From Pyrinomonadaceae bacterium (GTDB lineage: Bacteria > Acidobacteriota > Blastocatellia > Pyrinomonadales > Pyrinomonadaceae), in the NCBI GenBank assembly GCA_013813825.1, contig JACCRA010000227.1, positions 1-11,630 of the forward strand: 11,630 nt of DNA. Direction: 5' to 3'. A program made the translations under genes and the position numbers. The number at the start of each line of letters is the position of its first letter. The first letter of the stretch is position 1. Positions 2,241 to 11,451 of this stretch are shown piece after piece. The notes under the pieces are model-generated. The model was given only the letters and a program-made list of their open reading frames with translations. It ran no database searches and was not told the DNA's origin.

Positions 2241-2615
2241 TTAAGGAAAGACGAGCGTAACCAGCGTGATCGCGACAGCGGTGAAGAGCGCCCGCCGGTG
2301 AATGCGTCGCGACTGCCGGCGGAGTTGCTCGCTCAGTTCATCGTCGTCAATGCGCTCTTCGCCCGTGTCCAGATTGCGCGTCCCGCGCGCGGCCAGCGCG
2401 ATTCAGGTCTTCTCCCGCGCCTGCAACAGTCCCAGCCCGGCGATCCAGACGGGAAGGAAAACGACGAGGCGCGTCCAGCGCGGTGCGTCGTACACCACCA
2501 GCACGAAAGCCGCCGCCACGCCGATGGTCAGCGCCACAATGCCGAGCAGACGCCGCTTGCGCTGCTCGCGGGGACCAATATTGCAGACTTCGGAAGTCAT
2601 TGAGGTCTCGATCAC
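2241..2615 (-). CDS. Small three-helix membrane protein with in-frame TGA; candidate selenoprotein
   Basis: Read conventionally, this gene makes 70 residues and stops at TGA (2403-2405). Reading on in the same frame gives 53 more residues to TAA at 2241-2243, for 124 in total with the TGA at residue 71. The first part has a CNIGPREQRKRR motif (Cys11) and two hydrophobic helices (about residues 24-41 and 49-66). The part after the TGA has ALAARGTRNLDTG, an acidic stretch, a basic stretch and a third hydrophobic helix ending the protein. From memory, an uncharacterised family of small membrane proteins shares CNIG near the start and a conserved Cys after a QA-xxx stretch, exactly at the TGA. 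Selenocysteine insertion is therefore plausible; a nonsense mutation or sequencing error is the alternative. The GTG start at 2615 overlaps the preceding stop as GTGA. An ATG at 2600 is equally possible and gives a shorter leader before CNIG. Function unknown; the Cys/Sec pair hints at redox or metal chemistry. Confidence 0.72.
2376..2390 (-). promoter_or_regulatory. SECIS-like hairpin just downstream of the in-frame TGA
   Basis: In the mRNA, 12 nt after UGA, GCGCG (2390-2386) can pair with CGCGC (2380-2376) around a five-base loop CGGGA (2385-2381). The loop starts 17 nt after the UGA and has G as its second base. Both features fit the general description of bacterial SECIS elements: an apical loop about 16-37 nt after UGA with an early G. 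There is no obvious bulged U, and GC-rich DNA forms such hairpins easily, so this is only suggestive. Confidence 0.3.
2403..2405 (-). other. In-frame TGA at a conserved Cys position (possible Sec codon)
   Basis: The codon follows LLQAREKT and precedes IALAARGTRNLDTG in an otherwise open frame. Coding character and membrane-protein architecture continue unchanged past it. In the family as I remember it this residue is Cys, and TGA is one base from TGC or TGT. Whether it is recoded depends on the host having SelA/SelB/SelC/SelD, which this window cannot show. Confidence 0.55.
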
Positions 2616-3322
2616 CGCTGCTCATCGCGGAGTGTTGCCAGCGGTTGTCCGGCCGTCACACGGTCGCCGACGCGCGCGTTGATGGCGCTCACCGTCCCGG
2701 CGGAGGGAGTTGCAGCCATCACCAACCGCTCCGACGGTGACGGCGTGGTAGCGACAGAGTTTGGGAATTGTTGCGGCTGTTGCCGGGCGGCGACGAGGCC
2801 GGATTGCGCGTCCTGCGCTGACGCTTGCGCCCGCCGCAATTGTTGCTGCGCTCGTTCGTACTGCGCCCGTGCGCCGTCCAATTGAGCTTGCGGCACGTCG
2901 CCGGAAGCGGCGAGCGGCGTCAGACGCTGCACTTCCACTTCAGTTCGCACGACTTCAGTTCTGGCGGCCTCAATTCCTTCCTGTGCCGTCGCGATGCCTC
3001 TGCGTGCCCGCGCCTGCGGGTCTTCCGTCGGCCCCGGTGGCGGCACGCCACCGGGCGTCTCCGTGCGGACGGCGATCTCGACCACCGGCGCGCCGGCGCT
3101 CACAGTCATCCCCTCTCGCACAAAGACCCGCCGCACCTCTCCCGCCGCCGGCGCATTGACGATCACGATGCCGCGCGCGACGTCCGTCTCGTTGTCATCT
3201 CCCGAAGACTGACAGGCCGCGAACACAACGAGCGCGCCTGTCAATAGCAGCAGGGGACCAGTTCGCAATACGGCCCAGCGCGGCGGACAAATCTCTACTT
3301 TTGCCAGAGGTCTATTATTCAT
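2612..3322 (-). CDS. Adaptor-like lipoprotein: lipoyl halves plus coiled-coil hairpin, no beta-barrel
   Basis: A 236-residue protein that looks like a minimal membrane-fusion (HlyD/AcrA-like) adaptor. After a hydrophobic segment the sequence LVVFAAC puts a likely lipidated Cys at residue 37; Phe at -3 is slightly unusual for a lipobox. A first half-lipoyl motif (NAPAAGEVRRVFVREGMTV) is followed by a Gly/Pro linker, then a long Ala/Gln/Arg/Glu-rich helical hairpin (about residues 100-180). A second half-lipoyl motif (PSAGTVSAINARVGDRV) ends the protein. The beta-barrel and membrane-proximal domains of normal RND adaptors are absent, yet both ends look intact, so it is not a simple truncation. 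The ATG at 3322 is chosen over longer reading because upstream codons are the shadow of the outer-membrane gene, whose stop it overlaps by 8 bp. Probable accessory periplasmic partner of the pump or outer-membrane factor (inference). Confidence 0.85.
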   Translation of the reverse strand: MNNRPLAKVEICPPRWAVLRTGPLLLLTGALVVFAACQSSGDDNETDVARGIVIVNAPAAGEVRRVFVREGMTVSAGAPVVEIAVRTETPGGVPPPGPTEDPQARARRGIATAQEGIEAARTEVVRTEVEVQRLTPLAASGDVPQAQLDGARAQYERAQQQLRRAQASAQDAQSGLVAARQQPQQFPNSVATTPSPSERLVMAATPSAGTVSAINARVGDRVTAGQPLATLRDEQR

Positions 3323-5669
3323 TCGGTCTTGCTGCTTCCGCCGCCGCACTGCTCGAACCTGCTCCCGGTGTTCCCAAGATTGTGTTGGCGGCGTCCGCGC
3401 TGTTAGCGGCGGCGGGCCGCAGTTCAAGTTCGCGCGTGGGCGTGTCCGTTCGCAACGCGACGTTGTTGGCGTCGAGCGTATTGCCGATGGCGCGTTGGAA
3501 TTCGGCGATGGCTTTGTTGAGATCGGTCTGCGCCTGCAATTCACGACCGCGCGCCGCCAGCAGTTCGTTCTGCCTTTGCAGCACTAAAAAGACGGTGGTC
3601 GTGCCGGCCCGGAATTGCCGTTGCTCGCTCTCGGACTGCTGCTCGGCGGAGGAGCGCGTGGCGGCGGCGGAAGCGAGGCGCGCTTCGGCCGAGCGCAAGG
3701 CCTGCGTGGCATTTCGCACGTCGGCCTCGATCACTTGTTCGGCCTGCGCGCGCTGGTTCTGGATGCGCCGGCCTTCGACGAGCGAGCGGCCGAGATTCGC
3801 CTGCGCGGTGCGATTCCGCAGAGGGAGTTCGACGCGCACGCCGACGCGGTACGTCGGATAGTCCTGACCGATCAGGTTCGACAGCGATTGTGGATAACCG
3901 CCGATTAGGTTCGGCGACACCGCGCCGCCGGTCGTGGTGGCGGGCAGCGGCGGCAGTCCCGCAATCGTGGAGAGTTCGTTGACGCGCGCACGCAAAGCCG
4001 CGTTGCCGCTCAAGACTGACCCTGTGCCGGTGTTGGCGGCCTGCGTCGGCGCGCCGGAGAGTCCGACGGAGGTGTATGTCCCGACGAGATCGAGTTGCGG
4101 CTTCGACTGGTCGCGGAAAAATCTGGTGTCGAGTTGGTTGATCTCGGCGGTGGTTTGCAGTTGCGCCAGTTCCGGGCGATTGCTGATCGCGGACGCCACC
4201 GCCTGTTCGAGCGGCACGCGCGGCGCTTCGAGATCGACGGGCGTGATCGGCGTCAGCGGGCGCGACCACAATGCGGACGCGCGATCCGGCAGCACCAACG
4301 TCTTTAATACATTTTCCGCGCGCGTCACCGCTTCCTGCGCGGTATAGACGCTCTGCTCGAACGTCGTGACCTGCGTGTTGGCGGCGACGATCTCGATGGG
4401 AGCCAGCACGCCTCGTTCGACGAGTCGTTGGTTACTTTCGAGTTGGACGCGCGCCTGTTTGACGGCGTCGATCTGAACTTGCAAATTGCGGAGCGCGAAG
4501 GCCAAGTCCCAGTAAGCCTGCTGCACCTGCGCGATCACTTCGATGGCGCGCTGGCGGAATTGCGCGTCGGTTAAGCTGAGGTTCTTTTTAGCGATCTCGA
4601 TGGTGCGGCGATTGTTGTCGAAGCGCCGGCCGCGCAAGAGCGGCTGCGTGTAGGTGAAGTTGAAGGCCGTCGGGAATTGCGGATTGAGCGTGACGTTCTG
4701 GTTGTTCGTCGTCAGGCGCGTCGAAGAAAAATCGAGTTGGTACGAGCCGCCGGCGTAGGGCGAGAAGCCGCCGAAGCGCATCGCGCCGGTCGCGTCCGTC
4801 TGCATGACCGAGCCGTTTTGCGCGCCGCCGAGGGTCGAACTGGTCGGCGTGACGCGGCTCTCGTAATAACTCTCCGTCGAAAAGATCGGATCGTAGATGC
4901 CGCGCGCCGCCTGCAAATTATACTCGGCGATCTGCACGTCGATCCGCGAGCCGTCGATGTCGTTGTTATCTTTCAGCGCCAGCGCGATGGCTTCGTTGAG
5001 CGTCAGCGGAACCTGATCGGCCATGTCCACGCCGACGCGCTCGGCGCTCGGCAGCGGTCGTTGCGTGGCTTCAAAGTTTGGCGCGATGGGCGGCGGCTCC
5101 GTCGGCAATTCGGCGGGGGCGATGCCGCTCGAAGCGCCGACGCCCGAGCCGGGCACGACAGTTCCCGGCGTGCCGGCGGTTGCCGGCCCGGCGCTGCCGG
5201 GAGTTGTCGCCCCTTCCGCTTGCGGCGGAGTTGTGCCGGCGGGCGTGCTTGTTTGCGGCTGCCCCGGCGCGGTCTGTTGCGAGGGCGGCTGCACTTGCGG
5301 CGAGATCGGGCGCGGCCCCTGCGTGTTGGGAGTTGTCTGCTGGCGTTCCTGCTCCACGCCCGTTTGCGGCTGCGTGCTCTGCTGCGCTTCGTTGTCGGGG
5401 CGCACCGGAGCGGACGAGGAGTTAGGGGGCAACTGCGTGGTCGGCGGCGGCAACGCGCCGGGCCGTCGCTGTTGTCCCTGTGTGGACGAGCCGGCGGGAG
5501 GCGATTGCTGTGTCGTTGAAGACGGCGGCTGTTGCCGTGTTTGATTCTGCGCCACGGTGGTGGTCGCGACGGACGCCGACAAGAGCGCCACCGCGACGAG
5601 CATCGAGCAGACGGCGCGCGGAATTATCGTTTGCAATGCGCGCTTAATCGCCTGAAGTGTGATCGACAT
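3315..5669 (-). CDS. TolC-like outer-membrane efflux protein with long Pro/Gln/Thr-rich N-terminal region
   Basis: Outer-membrane channel of the tripartite exporter. The N-terminus has a basic and hydrophobic export signal ending near residue 40 (VATTTVAQ). Residues about 41-210 are low-complexity, rich in Pro, Gln, Thr, Ser and Gly, and not part of the usual fold. The two outer-membrane-efflux repeats follow. The first starts near residue 217 (VPLTLNEAIALALKDN) with an amphipathic helical segment around 355-460. The second starts near 484 (VPLEQAVASAISNRPEL) and ends with the helix containing FRAGTTTVFLVLQRQNEL. At 784 residues it is much longer than typical family members (about 420-500), mainly because of the N-terminal region. 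The ATG at 5669 has GAAGGA upstream and overlaps the pump gene by 26 bp, indicating co-translation. No lipobox is obvious, so it is probably cut by signal peptidase I. Confidence 0.93.
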   Translation of the reverse strand: MSITLQAIKRALQTIIPRAVCSMLVAVALLSASVATTTVAQNQTRQQPPSSTTQQSPPAGSSTQGQQRRPGALPPPTTQLPPNSSSAPVRPDNEAQQSTQPQTGVEQERQQTTPNTQGPRPISPQVQPPSQQTAPGQPQTSTPAGTTPPQAEGATTPGSAGPATAGTPGTVVPGSGVGASSGIAPAELPTEPPPIAPNFEATQRPLPSAERVGVDMADQVPLTLNEAIALALKDNNDIDGSRIDVQIAEYNLQAARGIYDPIFSTESYYESRVTPTSSTLGGAQNGSVMQTDATGAMRFGGFSPYAGGSYQLDFSSTRLTTNNQNVTLNPQFPTAFNFTYTQPLLRGRRFDNNRRTIEIAKKNLSLTDAQFRQRAIEVIAQVQQAYWDLAFALRNLQVQIDAVKQARVQLESNQRLVERGVLAPIEIVAANTQVTTFEQSVYTAQEAVTRAENVLKTLVLPDRASALWSRPLTPITPVDLEAPRVPLEQAVASAISNRPELAQLQTTAEINQLDTRFFRDQSKPQLDLVGTYTSVGLSGAPTQAANTGTGSVLSGNAALRARVNELSTIAGLPPLPATTTGGAVSPNLIGGYPQSLSNLIGQDYPTYRVGVRVELPLRNRTAQANLGRSLVEGRRIQNQRAQAEQVIEADVRNATQALRSAEARLASAAATRSSAEQQSESEQRQFRAGTTTVFLVLQRQNELLAARGRELQAQTDLNKAIAEFQRAIGNTLDANNVALRTDTPTRELELRPAAANSADAANTILGTPGAGSSSAAAEAARPNE

Positions 5670-8600
5670 ATCTATCCTTCATGGTTGCGCTGGAGGGGGC
5701 TGGCCGGGCAACTTTCGTTTTGCGAGAGAAGATGCCGGCGACACCGGCGTAAGCCTCGGAGAGACGACGCCCCGCGCCGCCTTTGAAGTTATTGAAGCCC
5801 GCGCCGGCCCAAGCCCATACGCGCGAGTCCTTCGCGTCCTCGAACAGCGAGTAAAAGACCGGCACGGCCAAAAGCGTCAGCAGCAAGCACATGGACTGTC
5901 CGCCGACCACCAGCACGCCGATAGAACGATTCGTGGCCGCGCCCGCGCCGCTGCCCACAATAAGCGGGATCATGCCCGCGACGAGCGCGATGGTCGTCAT
6001 CAGGATCGGCCGCAGGCGGTCGCGATTGGCCTGCAAGATCGCGCTGTACCGTTCCATGCCGTGCGAGCGCAACTCGTTCGTGTGATCGATCTGCAAGATC
6101 GCGTTCTTCTTGACGATGCCGAACAAGAGCAAAATGCCGAGCGCGGAGAAGATGTTGAGACGTTGTCCGGCAATCAAGGTTGAGAGCAACGCGAACGGGA
6201 TCGAGAGCGGCAACGTCAAGAGGATCGTCACCGGATGGATGAACGACTCGAACTGCGCCGCGAGAATCAGATACATGAAGACGAACGAGAGCAGGAACGC
6301 CAGCATGAACGATTGATTCGCGCGCTGTAATTCCTTCGACTGCCCCGTGACGCCCGTCAGATAGCCCGCCTCCATGTTCAACTCCCGCGCGTAACGCTGA
6401 ACGGCAACGAGGCCGTCGGCCTCCGAGCCGTTCGGCGCGAAGCTCGCCGAGATCGTCACCTGCCGTTGCCGGTTCAGACGATCAATCGAAGCCGGACTCT
6501 CGCCCTCTTCGAGACGCACGACCTTCTCCAACCCGACCGTGCCGCCGGCTGACGACGCGACGGTGAAGTTGCTCAAATTCTCGCGCGTCCGCCGGAACTC
6601 TTCACCCGCGCGCACGACCACGTCGTATTGATCCGACCCGTCACTGAAAGTCGTGACGCGCGTTCCCGCAGCGAGCGTGTTCAAAGCCTGCGCTACGTCG
6701 CCAGCGCGCACTCCGAGGTCTGCCGCGCGCTGGCGGTCAATGAGGATGCGCACTTCCGGGCTGCTCAATTGGAGCGAGCGGTCGGCGTCGCGAAAGTTCT
6801 CATCCTTCTTGATGCGCTCGACCAGCTTGTTGGAATACTCATCGAGTTTCTGAATGTCGGGGCCGCTGATGAAGAAACCCAACGACGACCCGCCGCGCCC
6901 TTGGCCGAGACTCGCGCCGATGGAAGACCCGCCCGATGCGTTAATCACATACTCCTTCGGATACTTCCTTTTCCGGATCATGTCACGCGTCTGTTGGATC
7001 AACTCGGCCTGCGAAAACTCGCGCTCTTTCACCGGCGTGAGAGACACCTGCACCGAGCCTTGATTCGGCGAACCGCCGCCGCCGAAGCCGCCCGCGTTGA
7101 CGAGCGTGTTCTGGACGCCGGGAATTTGCTCGCGCACGTCGCGCGCGACGCGCTCCAACACCGACTGCGTCGCCGGGAGGCTCGTGCCCTGCGGCGCGCG
7201 TAAATTTACTGAAAAGGCCGACTCGTCTTCGTCAGGCAAAAAGTTGTAACCGACATATTTGTAGAGCGGCCAGATCGAGGCGACGACGACCACGCAGAGC
7301 ACGACGACGATCCAACGGTGAGCCATTGACCAACGGAGCATCCACATGTACGAGCGATCAATCGGACGATAAAAGCGTCCGCCCTTCGACGACGCATGTT
7401 CCTTCTGCGCGCCGTGCTCATCACGACGCATGTCAGGCGGCGTCTCTTCGCCGTCCGCGCCGTCGCCCACGCCACCCGCTCCGGCTGGCGGTAAACCTTC
7501 GGGCGTGATGGATTCTTTCGGCGGTTTGATCCAGCGCGCCGCGAGCATCGGCGTGAGCGTGAACGAGACGATGAGCGAGACGGCAATCGCGGCGGCGGCG
7601 GTCAGGCCGAACGAAGACATGAAGCGCCCGACGATGCCGGTCATGAAACCGACGGGGATAAAGACGGCGAGCAACGAGAGCGTCGTCGCCATCACGGCGA
7701 GGCCGATTTCGCGCGTGCCTTCGACCGCCGCCTGAAATGGATGCATTCCCTTCTCTTCAACGAAGCGGTAAATGTTCTCTAACACCACAATCGCATCGTC
7801 GATCACGATGCCGACCATCAAGGTCAGCGCCAACATCGTCATCTGATTGAGCGAGTAGCCGAGCGCCGCGATGATGGCGAAGGAGGCGATGATCGAAGTT
7901 GGGATGGCGAGCGCGGCGATGATCGTCGAGCGGAAATTCCACAAAAAGAGAAAGACGATCAAAGCCGCGAGCAGGCCGCCGACGATCAAGTGCTCTTCGA
8001 TGGCGTGCAGAGAGGTCTCGATAAACTCCGACTGATCGCGCGTGACGACGACCTTGAGGTCTGTCGGCAGGAGCGGCTGAATCTCCGCCATGCGCTGCTT
8101 CACGCCTGAGATAACGGCGACGGTGTTCGCGCCCGACTGTTTGCGGATGCCGAGCGACACGGACGGCACGCCGTTTAGAGACGCCGCCGATTGCGGGTCA
8201 ACGCCGCTGTCTTCGACGCGCCCGATGTCGCTGATCTTGACTGCGTACCCGTTCCGCGTCGCGACGACAATGTCGTTGAAATCTTCGACCCGCGTAATCT
8301 TCGAGAGAGTCCTGAGCGTCACCGTGCGTGCGCCTTCGTCGAGTCGTCCGCCGGGCAGTTCGAGGTTCTGCGCCCGCAAAGCGTTCGAGACTTCCGTGAC
8401 CGACAAATTGTAAGCGCGCAGGCGATCCGGTTCGATGTAAATTTTGATCTCGCGCAGGCGTCCGCCGAAGACGATGACTTCGCCGACGCCGTCCGCCGAT
8501 TCGATGCGCTCCTGAATCTGCTTCTGCACGATGTCTGTGAGTTCGACCGACGAGCGCGGCGCGCTGATCGCATAGACGAGGACGGGCTGCGAGTCGGGGT

Positions 8601-8997
8601 CGGACTTGCGGACGATGGGCGGGTCGGCGGTCTCCGGCAGACGGTTGATGATAGTGCTGACCTTGTCGCGCACTTCCTGCGTCGCGAGGTCCGGGTCTTT
8701 CTCCAGGTTGAAATTGATCGTGACGTTCGAGCGACCCTGCGCGGAACTGGAGCGCATCTCGTCAATGCCGGGGACAGTGTTGACCGCGCCTTCGATGATG
8801 TCCGTGATCTCGGTCTCGATCTCCTGCGGAGCCGCGCCCGTGTTCGTCGTCGAGATCGAGACGGTCGGGATGTCGATCTTCGGAAAGCGATCAACGCCAA
8901 GCGTGAAGAAAGAGAAACCGCCGATGACCGTCAACAGCAGAATAATGACGGTCGCAAAGACGGGCCGCCGCACGCAAATCTCAGCTAACTTCTGCAT
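5644..8997 (-). CDS. RND efflux pump, inner-membrane transporter (AcrB/HAE1-like)
   Basis: Proton-driven inner-membrane transporter that should pass substrates to the outer-membrane channel through the adaptor encoded upstream. The N-terminus MQKLAEICVRRPVFATVII and the following GVDRFPKIDIPTV are the classic start of RND permeases. The proton-relay pair in helix 4 is visible as Asp400-Asp401 in MVGIVIDDAIVVLENI, and helix 10 has Lys963-Lys964 in FGIVKKNAILQIDH. The usual two-fold repeat of porter domains and twelve helices fits. It is 1117 residues, longer than the usual 1030-1050. The excess lies in a Gly/Glu-rich cytoplasmic loop (about 492-541) after helix 6 and a C-terminal tail of about 66 residues from 1052. 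The ATG at 8997 has AGGAG just upstream. Sequence alone suggests the HAE1 (drug or amphiphile) class rather than heavy-metal pumps; the substrate cannot be named. Confidence 0.96.
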   Translation of the reverse strand: MQKLAEICVRRPVFATVIILLLTVIGGFSFFTLGVDRFPKIDIPTVSISTTNTGAAPQEIETEITDIIEGAVNTVPGIDEMRSSSAQGRSNVTINFNLEKDPDLATQEVRDKVSTIINRLPETADPPIVRKSDPDSQPVLVYAISAPRSSVELTDIVQKQIQERIESADGVGEVIVFGGRLREIKIYIEPDRLRAYNLSVTEVSNALRAQNLELPGGRLDEGARTVTLRTLSKITRVEDFNDIVVATRNGYAVKISDIGRVEDSGVDPQSAASLNGVPSVSLGIRKQSGANTVAVISGVKQRMAEIQPLLPTDLKVVVTRDQSEFIETSLHAIEEHLIVGGLLAALIVFLFLWNFRSTIIAALAIPTSIIASFAIIAALGYSLNQMTMLALTLMVGIVIDDAIVVLENIYRFVEEKGMHPFQAAVEGTREIGLAVMATTLSLLAVFIPVGFMTGIVGRFMSSFGLTAAAAIAVSLIVSFTLTPMLAARWIKPPKESITPEGLPPAGAGGVGDGADGEETPPDMRRDEHGAQKEHASSKGGRFYRPIDRSYMWMLRWSMAHRWIVVVLCVVVVASIWPLYKYVGYNFLPDEDESAFSVNLRAPQGTSLPATQSVLERVARDVREQIPGVQNTLVNAGGFGGGGSPNQGSVQVSLTPVKEREFSQAELIQQTRDMIRKRKYPKEYVINASGGSSIGASLGQGRGGSSLGFFISGPDIQKLDEYSNKLVERIKKDENFRDADRSLQLSSPEVRILIDRQRAADLGVRAGDVAQALNTLAAGTRVTTFSDGSDQYDVVVRAGEEFRRTRENLSNFTVASSAGGTVGLEKVVRLEEGESPASIDRLNRQRQVTISASFAPNGSEADGLVAVQRYARELNMEAGYLTGVTGQSKELQRANQSFMLAFLLSFVFMYLILAAQFESFIHPVTILLTLPLSIPFALLSTLIAGQRLNIFSALGILLLFGIVKKNAILQIDHTNELRSHGMERYSAILQANRDRLRPILMTTIALVAGMIPLIVGSGAGAATNRSIGVLVVGGQSMCLLLTLLAVPVFYSLFEDAKDSRVWAWAGAGFNNFKGGAGRRLSEAYAGVAGIFSRKTKVARPAPSSATMKDRYVDHTSGD

Positions 8998-9071: not shown

Positions 9072-10409
9072 TCATTGACGCACCCGCGCGCCTTCAAAAA
9101 GTTGTGGCAGGTTGTTGGTCGCTACGGTCTCGTCCGCTTGGATGCCGGAGATGATTTGCACCATGTCGCCCTCTTCCGTGCCGATCTGCACGACGCGCAA
9201 TTTTGCGATGTCGCCTTGAATCACGAAGGCGCGGTACGACTGCGTGTTTTGATCCGAGAGGATAGCGGAGCGCGGCACGAAGACGGCCTTGTTTCCGCCC
9301 GGCCGCGTGATCCGCGCGGTGGCGAACATGCCGGACCGGAGCGCGTTGTCGCCGTTCTCGACGGAGACTTCGACAATCGCCGCGCGCGAAATCGGATCAA
9401 TAGCCGGGTTGACCGCCGCGACGCGCCCCCCGAACTTCCGGTCGCGGTGCGCATCAACTTCCAGCGAGACGCCCATGCCGGATGTAATAAACGGCACTTC
9501 CGATTCCGGCACTTGTAATTGCAACTTGATCGGGTTGGTTCGCAACACGGTCGCCACGACGGACGCCGGCGTGACGTATTCGCCGGCGGCGATGGGGCGA
9601 TTGCTGACGTAACCGGCATACGGCGCGCGGATCACCGCGTCGGCCACGGCCTTTTGCGCGATGGAAACTTGGGCGCGCGCCGACGCGACTTCCGCCTCGG
9701 CGGTCTGAATGGCTTGATTGCTCTGGCGCGCGGTGTTGCGCGCGGATTCGAGTTGCTGGCGCGTGCTATTGACCCGCGCTCTGGCTGTGTCGCGTTGCGT
9801 GCGGTATTGATCGTAAACACTGAGCGCCACATCGCCCGTCTCGACCAATTCGCGGTAACGCTTTTCGTTGGCCTCAGCCAAGCGCAACTCGGCCTGCGCC
9901 TGTTCCAAATTCGAGTTTGCCGCGCGCACTTCGGGAATCTGGCCGGCGTCGAAGCTGCCGCCGGGCCGCAAACCGAGACGCGCTTCCGCCTGCCTGACGC
10001 CGGCGATGGCCTGCTGCACGCCGGACTCCGCTTGTTGTAGACGCAGCCGCGCGTCCCGGTCGTTGAGACGCGCGAGCACGTCGCCCTGCCGCACGAACGC
10101 GCCGACATCAATGGGTGTCGCCACCACTTGCCCGGAGGCTTGCGAGGAGACGTCCGAAGTCTCGTCGGCCACTAAGCTGCCTGACGTCTGAATAAACGAC
10201 GGCACTTCGCGCGCGACGGCCTTCTCGGTCGTGACAGCCACGGGCGGGGCTTCCGCCGCGGCAGCAGTTCCATCGCCCCCCGCCGCCCCTTCCTTCGCGT
10301 TCGCCTTTGATTCGGAGCGCCCGCAAGCCGCACCGAACAGTGAGACGGCAAGTAACAAGCCACAGAGTTGGGCGGCGCGAACTCTGCGAAAGACGAATGA
10401 AGAAGACAT
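9072..10409 (-). CDS. RND efflux periplasmic adaptor (membrane-fusion) lipoprotein
   Basis: Periplasmic adaptor that links the RND pump to the outer-membrane channel. The 445-residue protein begins with a basic and hydrophobic leader and a lipobox, SLFGAAC, giving a likely lipidated Cys29. A flexible Ala/Gly-rich linker follows to about residue 56. The first half-lipoyl motif (SSQASGQVVATPIDVGAFV) is at about 88-106, then a long Ala/Gln/Arg-rich coiled-coil hairpin to about 245. The second half-lipoyl motif (VIRAPYAGYVSNRPIAAGEY) is followed by the beta-barrel (QLQVPESEVPFITSGMGV, GRVAAVNPAIDPISRAA) and a C-terminal membrane-proximal domain. The ATG at 10409 is preferred over the longer frame from 10487. 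AAGGGA sits about 7 bases before it, and it places the signal peptide at the N-terminus. It is the first gene of the operon, 74 bp upstream of the pump gene. HlyD/AcrA family membership is clear. Confidence 0.95.
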   Translation of the reverse strand: MSSSFVFRRVRAAQLCGLLLAVSLFGAACGRSESKANAKEGAAGGDGTAAAAEAPPVAVTTEKAVAREVPSFIQTSGSLVADETSDVSSQASGQVVATPIDVGAFVRQGDVLARLNDRDARLRLQQAESGVQQAIAGVRQAEARLGLRPGGSFDAGQIPEVRAANSNLEQAQAELRLAEANEKRYRELVETGDVALSVYDQYRTQRDTARARVNSTRQQLESARNTARQSNQAIQTAEAEVASARAQVSIAQKAVADAVIRAPYAGYVSNRPIAAGEYVTPASVVATVLRTNPIKLQLQVPESEVPFITSGMGVSLEVDAHRDRKFGGRVAAVNPAIDPISRAAIVEVSVENGDNALRSGMFATARITRPGGNKAVFVPRSAILSDQNTQSYRAFVIQGDIAKLRVVQIGTEEGDMVQIISGIQADETVATNNLPQLFEGARVRQ

Positions 10410-10686: not shown

Positions 10687-11451
10687 ATGGATGATTGGGG
10701 CGAAGAACGGGCGAGGAAGCTGCGCGAGTTTCTCAAACTCGACGCGGAGAGTCTATTAATCGCACCGGACGAAATGGCCGCATTAGAACTGCGGCCGGAA
10801 ATGGCCGACGGCCTCGCTCATTTCAATATCGAATGGCATCTCATCCCGTCGGCCGAGGCCGTCCCGCTCGATGACTCGTATCTGTTGCGCCTCTACCCGA
10901 CGGCCGCGCGAGATTTCGCGAAACCTCACGAGCACGGAGCGAGCCGCCGCGAAGCACTCATCACGGGACACCGGCGACATCAAGGGCGCGTCATCGGCGT
11001 GGAGACGACGAGGAAGCCGTGTTACCTGCCGGGCAACCGCCAGTTTTACGGCACGGCCTACGGCCACGACGCCTCTTCCGATCCGTTCGCGGCCTACATG
11101 GGACGCGCCGGGATGATGAACGGCACGCGCTACGCGCACAACTATCTCTCATTGCGCGAATTCATCCGCGTCGTGAATGAAGACTGGCGCGCCCGCTCGC
11201 TCCTGCCCGCCGGCTATCGCGTCACCATCTGTCCGCCCGCCGTCTTTAACCTCGTCGGAACCATCTTTCATCCAGAGTGGAGCGCGACGGAGACGCTCGA
11301 ACTTGGCTTCTACCGCGACGAGCAAGGCAACGCGACATGCTACGCCGTCGGCGCGAACGCGCCGGGCGACTTCTCCTTCTTCAACGTGGTCGAGGGCGAA
11401 GCCGACTGGTCGCTGATGGGCTTTCGCCTCGCGCTCGTGCCGGAACACTGA
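10687..11451 (+). CDS. Hypothetical protein, 254 residues, soluble, function unknown
   Basis: I do not recognise this protein. The ATG at 10687 has GGAGG (10674-10678) eight bases upstream, a strong ribosome binding site. No signal peptide or membrane segment is visible, so it is probably cytoplasmic. The N-terminal 80 residues are acidic and include MDDWGEERARKLREFLKLDA. The C-terminal half is rich in aromatic residues and glycine, with stretches such as NRQFYGTAYGHD, YMGRAGMMNGTRYAHNY, VFNLVGTIFHPEW and GEADWSLMGFRLAL. Cys occurs only singly (KPCYLPG, VTICPP, NATCYA), and no helix-turn-helix or catalytic signature is evident. The ending WSLMGFRLALVPEH looks like an intact fold end. It is transcribed away from the efflux operon and towards dprA, whose stop lies 53 bp beyond its own. 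Coding is supported by the ribosome site and full-length open frame; the role is open. Confidence 0.8.
   Translation: MDDWGEERARKLREFLKLDAESLLIAPDEMAALELRPEMADGLAHFNIEWHLIPSAEAVPLDDSYLLRLYPTAARDFAKPHEHGASRREALITGHRRHQGRVIGVETTRKPCYLPGNRQFYGTAYGHDASSDPFAAYMGRAGMMNGTRYAHNYLSLREFIRVVNEDWRARSLLPAGYRVTICPPAVFNLVGTIFHPEWSATETLELGFYRDEQGNATCYAVGANAPGDFSFFNVVEGEADWSLMGFRLALVPEH

Follow-up and report, generated by a model that had tools for sequence, protein, structure and literature searches.

A predicted selenoprotein from an undescribed family of small membrane proteins, encoded at the end of an RND efflux operon in Acidobacteriota

Does the TGA inside a small gene at the end of an efflux operon stop translation, or is it read as selenocysteine (Sec)? 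The gene in question occupies 2241..2615 on the minus strand of the window, by which we mean the whole stretch of 11,630 nucleotides that was analyzed. Translation from 2615 to 2241 gives 70 sense codons, a TGA as codon 71 (2403..2405, minus strand), 53 further sense codons, and a TAA (2243-2241), which confirms the open reading frame given in a preliminary description of this DNA and assigns it to the minus strand. With the TGA translated as U, the product is a small membrane protein of 124 residues with Sec71 if it begins at GTG 2615, which overlaps the TGA stop of the upstream HlyD2 gene, or of 119 residues from the alternative start, ATG 2600. Hydropathy places hydrophobic segments at residues 23-41, 48-66, and 105-123; residue 71 sits just past the second of these, and the third falls within the post-TGA extension, IALAARGTRNLDTGEERIDDDELSEQLRRQSRRIHRRALFTAVAITLVTLVFP. 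The extension had been described as protein-like with a third hydrophobic helix, and both segment 105-123 and a gap-free alignment around the site in 19 genomes bear this out. The N-terminal 24 residues hold five Lys/Arg and three Asp/Glu, and the loop at residues 65-107 holds 10 and nine, respectively. Because of this Lys/Arg excess and the positive-inside rule, which was used to orient the membrane segments, a cytoplasmic location of the N-terminus and of loop 65-107 is slightly favored, the charge bias being slight and the topology read from hydropathy and charges only.

We then examined which residue stands at the TGA column in the other 24 members, which were aligned or read. The 25 family genes, all from Acidobacteriota genomes, comprise 13 with TGA and 12 with Cys at residue 71, and none has TAA, TAG, or Trp there. 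The proposal that the TGA falls on a conserved Cys of the family, and the expectation of Cys or TGA in homologues, were thus upheld by all 24. Within the window's own family group, 19 of 119 genomes carry the gene, the window's genome included; 10 of these genes have TGA and nine have TGC, in a gap-free alignment around the site (the nine include L036, an incomplete copy of 81 residues at the edge of a contig, which was counted as Cys). Two more members, L051 and L052, came from a profile search that covered 162 genomes of the class; both have TGA, belong to a second family group, and show 42-43% identity to the consensus of the own family group. Sampling 396 genomes across the phylum gave three more Cys forms (G492, G242, and G478), and a search of the class to which G492 belongs (193 genomes) gave one more TGA form, L086 in G601, from a class other than the window's and with 54% identity to the same consensus. 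These overlapping, non-exhaustive samples place the TGA forms in three family groups and two classes.

In the 22-row alignment A2, which omits L021 (a near-copy of L020), L036, and the later-found L086, residue 71 is among nine invariant columns when Sec is written as Cys. Cys11, the cysteine of the CNIG motif, is not conserved, unlike residue 71: 18 rows have a residue at that column, and only four of these have the Cys. The suggestion that Cys11 and Sec71 make this a Cys/Sec protein therefore does not extend to the family, which has no general Cys/Sec pair. A second Cys at position +9 from the site was seen in 5/9 Cys forms and 2/13 Sec forms (P 0.074; L018-L036, L051, L052, and L086), a hint that it is enriched in Cys forms. 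Two matches were dropped: L037, a second weak match in G101 (E 6e-4) that has a TGA but aligns with gaps at 38% and was not recovered by the profile search, and L089, which covers 54 profile positions (E 5.5e-5) and has its TGA at a different column. L038 is the same matched sequence as L027/L072 of G107 and was counted once, and a scan of genome contigs yielded one locus.

Taken by itself, the window would permit a nonsense mutation, a sequencing error, or a decaying pseudogene, the window being one contig of an assembly fragmented into 819, and the preliminary description had kept the first two as an alternative. The identical TGA stands in 13 genomes, and this recurrence across genomes and family groups excludes both a sequencing error and a nonsense mutation private to the window. 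Relatives with the same TGA ahead of a frameshifted, decaying 3′ part had also been raised as damaging to a selenoprotein; what we observed in the 13 TGA forms was an alignment with no gap around or after the site and no second stop in the aligned spans. Median dN/dS was 0.204 upstream of the TGA and 0.280 downstream (median dS ~1.09; 45 pairs among the 10 TGA forms of the own family group). Judged from these comparisons, purifying selection acts on the sequence downstream of the TGA, and we attach next to no probability to error or decay as the explanation of this gene.

An extension kept under selection leaves the question of how codon 71 is read, and here the distribution of the two residues is informative. 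On the inferred trees, Sec and Cys forms are interspersed and interchange repeatedly. The protein tree, built with the site masked (21 rows), calls for seven Sec/Cys changes, at least two of which are forced by well-supported branches; it has many weak branches (8/18 open). A tree of the neighboring RND and TolC proteins (16 rows) calls for five changes, at least three of them forced. The Sec/Cys labels cluster no more than shuffled ones. L034, a Sec form, and L027, a Cys form, are sisters within one genus (support 100/99).

Selenocysteine insertion at a UGA would be expected to involve a SECIS element, and on the minus strand at 2376..2390 there is a hairpin, GCGCG-CGGGA-CGCGC, that is a candidate for a bacterial SECIS, with its apical loop at 2385-2381; it was assessed by pairing, RNAalifold, codon fixity, and published limits. 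The hairpin starts 12 nt and its apical loop 17 nt past the TGA, and this sequence is present in most TGA forms. All 65 of 65 cells pair across the 13/13 TGA forms, against 0-63% for slid partners in the same alignment of 13, and RNAalifold, unprompted, recovers the same five pairs plus three outer pairs. The sole compensatory change, A-U in place of the usual G-C, is in L086; two of the pairs in L034 are G-U, and this copy is without the GGG loop. The nine Cys forms used as control, from which the three distant Cys forms were omitted, also pair in 41/45 cells, so pairing alone separates TGA from Cys forms poorly. With a single compensatory pair, and with shuffles equaling the covariation score in 76/500 cases, covariation is weak as proof of a SECIS element. 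Hairpin stability was rejected as proof, codon-preserving shuffles being nearly as stable in both groups: there was no stability excess over synonymous shuffles (z of -1.15 to -1.87 in TGA forms and 0.01 to -1.84 in Cys forms). Single-sequence folding gave the hairpin in 6/12 TGA forms and competing folds in the rest, the window's copy included. A search of the window against Rfam gave no match.

Codon choice at the hairpin was more discriminating. These statistics use 12 TGA forms (without L086), where the pair counts use 13, and the same nine Cys forms as control; codon positions are counted from the TGA. Glycine +7 is GGG in 10/12 TGA forms vs 1/9 Cys forms (P 0.0019), and position +8 is ACG in 11/12 vs 0/9 (P 3.4e-5). 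Around the TGA forms, GGG accounts for 7-21% of Gly codons, as counted in the three longest open frames per locus, some of which may be spurious at certain loci; against this usage, 10/12 gives P 4.6e-8 on the assumption of independent rows, which the rows not fully are. Among 54 testable codons, +5, +9, and +8 took the top three places for fixity and +6 came fifth; Gly +7 lies outside the 14 lowest fixity values shown, the fixity test requiring one codon in all rows. The bacterial SECIS limits given in the available part of PMC13188914 are a loop of 3-9 nt, a stem of 4-16 bp, a G in the first two loop positions, a spacing of 16-37 nt, and a minimum free energy of at most -7.5. All 13/13 TGA forms fall within them (loop of 5 nt, stem of 5 bp, G at loop position 2, spacing of 17 nt), and the hairpin core energy is -8.4 to -9.6 in the 12 folded TGA forms. 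It is on codon fixity and the loop sequence that the argument for a SECIS element relies.

The fixed hairpin codons also bear on whether the TGA could be a real stop, followed by a separately re-initiated 53-codon part, or an ordinary leaky stop. Selection on the second half needs no fusion by itself, and an ATG at +3 or +11, present in some members, might allow a split gene to restart. Yet no ATG position is common to all TGA forms (+3 in 5/12, +11 in 8/12), the codon is always TGA (13/13) and never TAA or TAG, and the other 12 members have Cys at this position. With the hairpin codons fixed in the TGA forms besides, a split gene or leaky stop is unlikely, retaining only a small share of the probability.

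To decode UGA as Sec, the genomes would need the corresponding machinery, and the presence of selA, selB, selC, and selD was checked in the window's genome (3.96 Mb, 819 contigs, 78% complete). The first three were found: a tRNA-Sec with anticodon TCA (74.7 bits), SelA at 548.6 bits (cut-off 267.9), and SelB at 376 bits (cut-off 242.25). SelD, the fourth, was not found over cut-off in this 78% complete assembly, which leaves it as the single gap in the set. UGA-bearing homologues occur in 12 other genomes of three family groups, and the machinery searches covered 11 of these 12 (all except G601). Among TGA genomes, a tRNA-Sec match of at least 68 bits was obtained in 11/12 tested, SelD was over cut-off in 10/12 (the exceptions being the window's genome and G106, which is 94% complete), and SelB was over cut-off in 9/10 of the own family group, with G102 below. 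SelB is over cut-off in 94/119 genomes of that group. Cys genomes gave a tRNA-Sec match above 65 bits in 9/12; in G107, G242, and G492, the best matches were tRNA-Ser. We also note that G160, the twelfth TGA genome, has a divergent tRNA-Sec candidate (L079, G160:C29:19638-19728; 56.8 bits) with TCA in its anticodon loop and no ARAGORN call, and that G106 has two tRNA-Sec genes (L084 and L085) and no SelD over cut-off.

SelD itself provided a second case of an in-frame TGA in these genomes. It was over cut-off in 18/24 genomes overall; every one of these SelD genes contains a single in-frame TGA, and in 17/18 read (L091-L108) this TGA is at the UxxK site, the motif catalogued for Sec-containing SelD in the part of PMC13188914 available. 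The SelD genes with in-frame TGA at UxxK therefore make it appear that UGA is decoded as Sec generally in the clade. Like the small membrane protein gene, SelD has a hairpin with a G-starting loop after its TGA, in 8/17 folds; it differs in being a known enzyme and in that its hairpin candidate starts ~27 nt past the UGA vs 12 nt.

Codon 71 might also be translated by a non-Sec tRNA, giving Cys, Ser, or some other residue, or an altered genetic code might make it Trp. SelC-like tRNAs with unusual anticodons or other identities are known, some of them from Acidobacteria (PMC7609411, in the part available), and G159 has a selC-like tRNA with anticodon GCA (L081, G159:C85:25781-25870) beside a tRNA-Sec with TCA. 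The window's genome, however, has a tRNA-Sec with TCA together with SelA, no member has Trp at the site, and TGA is a stop here, as the neighboring HlyD2 gene ends at one. Such alternative decoding is very improbable, about as remote as error or decay and more so than a split gene.

Sec decoding is the reading that we prefer. The claim of a new selenoprotein with an in-frame TGA at a Cys position draws support from the comparison in several ways, namely Sec/Cys interchange, selection past the TGA, the hairpin codons, and the presence of tRNA-Sec, SelA, and SelB. We conclude that the gene product is very probably a selenoprotein from a family not described before, with codon 71 (UGA) read as Sec via SelB and an in-frame SECIS hairpin. 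SelB would bring Sec-tRNA and bind the hairpin within the coding region, and Sec would be inserted at codon 71; this decoding step follows in part what is established for bacterial Sec insertion. Actual selenium insertion at codon 71 is what we infer from these data.

Next, we compared the protein with known families. The window protein matched no Pfam or NCBIfam model over cut-off. For 22 members, the best weak matches were to PF13398 (E 0.0046; five members match at E ≤1) and TIGR00933 (E 0.00075; one member only), in a table that does not show cut-offs. A PDB profile search gave a best E of 0.53, and searches of PHROGs and plasmids gave no match. A 2026 catalogue lists 119 bacterial selenoprotein families and subfamilies, none of which, as far as its names and motifs go, fits (PMC13188914, in part). 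As there is neither a curated model match nor a row in the available part of that catalogue, we call this a new selenoprotein family, set apart from the 119 by name or motif. With catalogued selenoproteins that have Cys homologues, it shares a UGA at a Cys position, a hairpin that fits the bacterial SECIS limits, and Sec machinery. Some catalogued families also combine Sec with a transport context, in the same part of that source: the SO_0444 Cu/Zn efflux transporter, a putative mercuric transport protein, and SaoP, SaoX, and SaoB. Those are transporters or binding proteins, whereas the window encodes a separate small protein after an RND-TolC operon, with one Sec and without a UxxC or CxxU motif. 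Nine further new families come from Desulfosarcina and Desulfosediminicola; the test set of that study, in the portion available, included one Acidobacteriota genome, which gave no new family (PMC12013277). Among papers found by searches of the open-licence PMC literature, titles and abstract openings describe no such protein, which leaves its absence from print unproven.

We then asked what the neighborhood suggests about function. Four genes precede the small gene on the minus strand. HlyD1 (9072..10409) is an RND periplasmic adaptor (TIGR01730, 225.8 bits, cut-off 94.9), followed by an RND efflux permease of the AcrB family (5644..8997; PF00873, E 3.4e-276), a TolC-type outer membrane efflux protein (3315..5669; PF02321, E 4.6e-38), and, immediately upstream of the small gene, HlyD2 (2612..3322), recognized by Pfam and NCBIfam and short and adaptor-like, with a lipoprotein-like N-terminus by reading. 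The order HlyD1-RND-TolC-HlyD2-gene, with the small gene ending the row, is that of the own family group, in which HlyD2 is directly upstream in 17/19 loci (the window and 16/18 relatives). The two remaining loci are near contig edges, and in L024/L067 a tail resembling the HlyD2 C-terminus was seen by eye before the gene. A strong HlyD2 match (E <1e-30) was found in 19/119 genomes, 18 of which carry the gene; in G085, HlyD2 and a TolC end were seen and the stretch read does not contain the gene, and in G102 the gene occurs with no HlyD2 match. At five loci of other family groups (those of the second family group and of the three distant Cys forms), the operon proteins used as queries found nothing. 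In the second family group, the gene adjoins a D-Ala-D-Ala carboxypeptidase-like gene (by reading). The G601 locus was read by eye only, and no pump gene was recognized in it. The link to an efflux operon that had been put forward thus stands for the own family group and not for those five loci. Since the gene lies outside the RND operon in other family groups, an efflux role of the small protein is offered as a hypothesis.

The role of the protein would turn on one reactive selenol or thiol next to the membrane, residue 71 being probably at the cytoplasmic face. A membrane-anchored selenol/thiol redox protein that reacts with oxidants or electrophiles at the membrane, and may serve the pump, is a tentative suggestion that we hold with low confidence. 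In the own family group, the protein would be made together with the RND pump and may sense for it, regulate it, or protect it. More doubtful still is the specific proposal of a membrane selenol sensor or repair protein built into the tripartite RND operon, with the same family working outside efflux elsewhere. If it were true, pump function in these Acidobacteriota would be tied to selenium and redox state. The operon offers a concrete lead to function.

A standard gene caller would cut this predicted selenoprotein to 70 residues. Further missed selenoproteins are likely in the own family group, we infer, because 94/119 of its genomes carry SelB over cut-off; little on selenocysteine use in Acidobacteriota was found in the literature searched. 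The repeated Sec/Cys exchange, including that between L034 and L027 in one genus, constitutes a natural experiment on what Sec contributes to a small membrane protein. Finally, the window also contains an open reading frame of 254 residues on the plus strand (10687-11451), which gave no Pfam or NCBIfam match at E 0.001; in G601, a relative of it was recognized by eye close to the homologous gene (L090 9078-9416).
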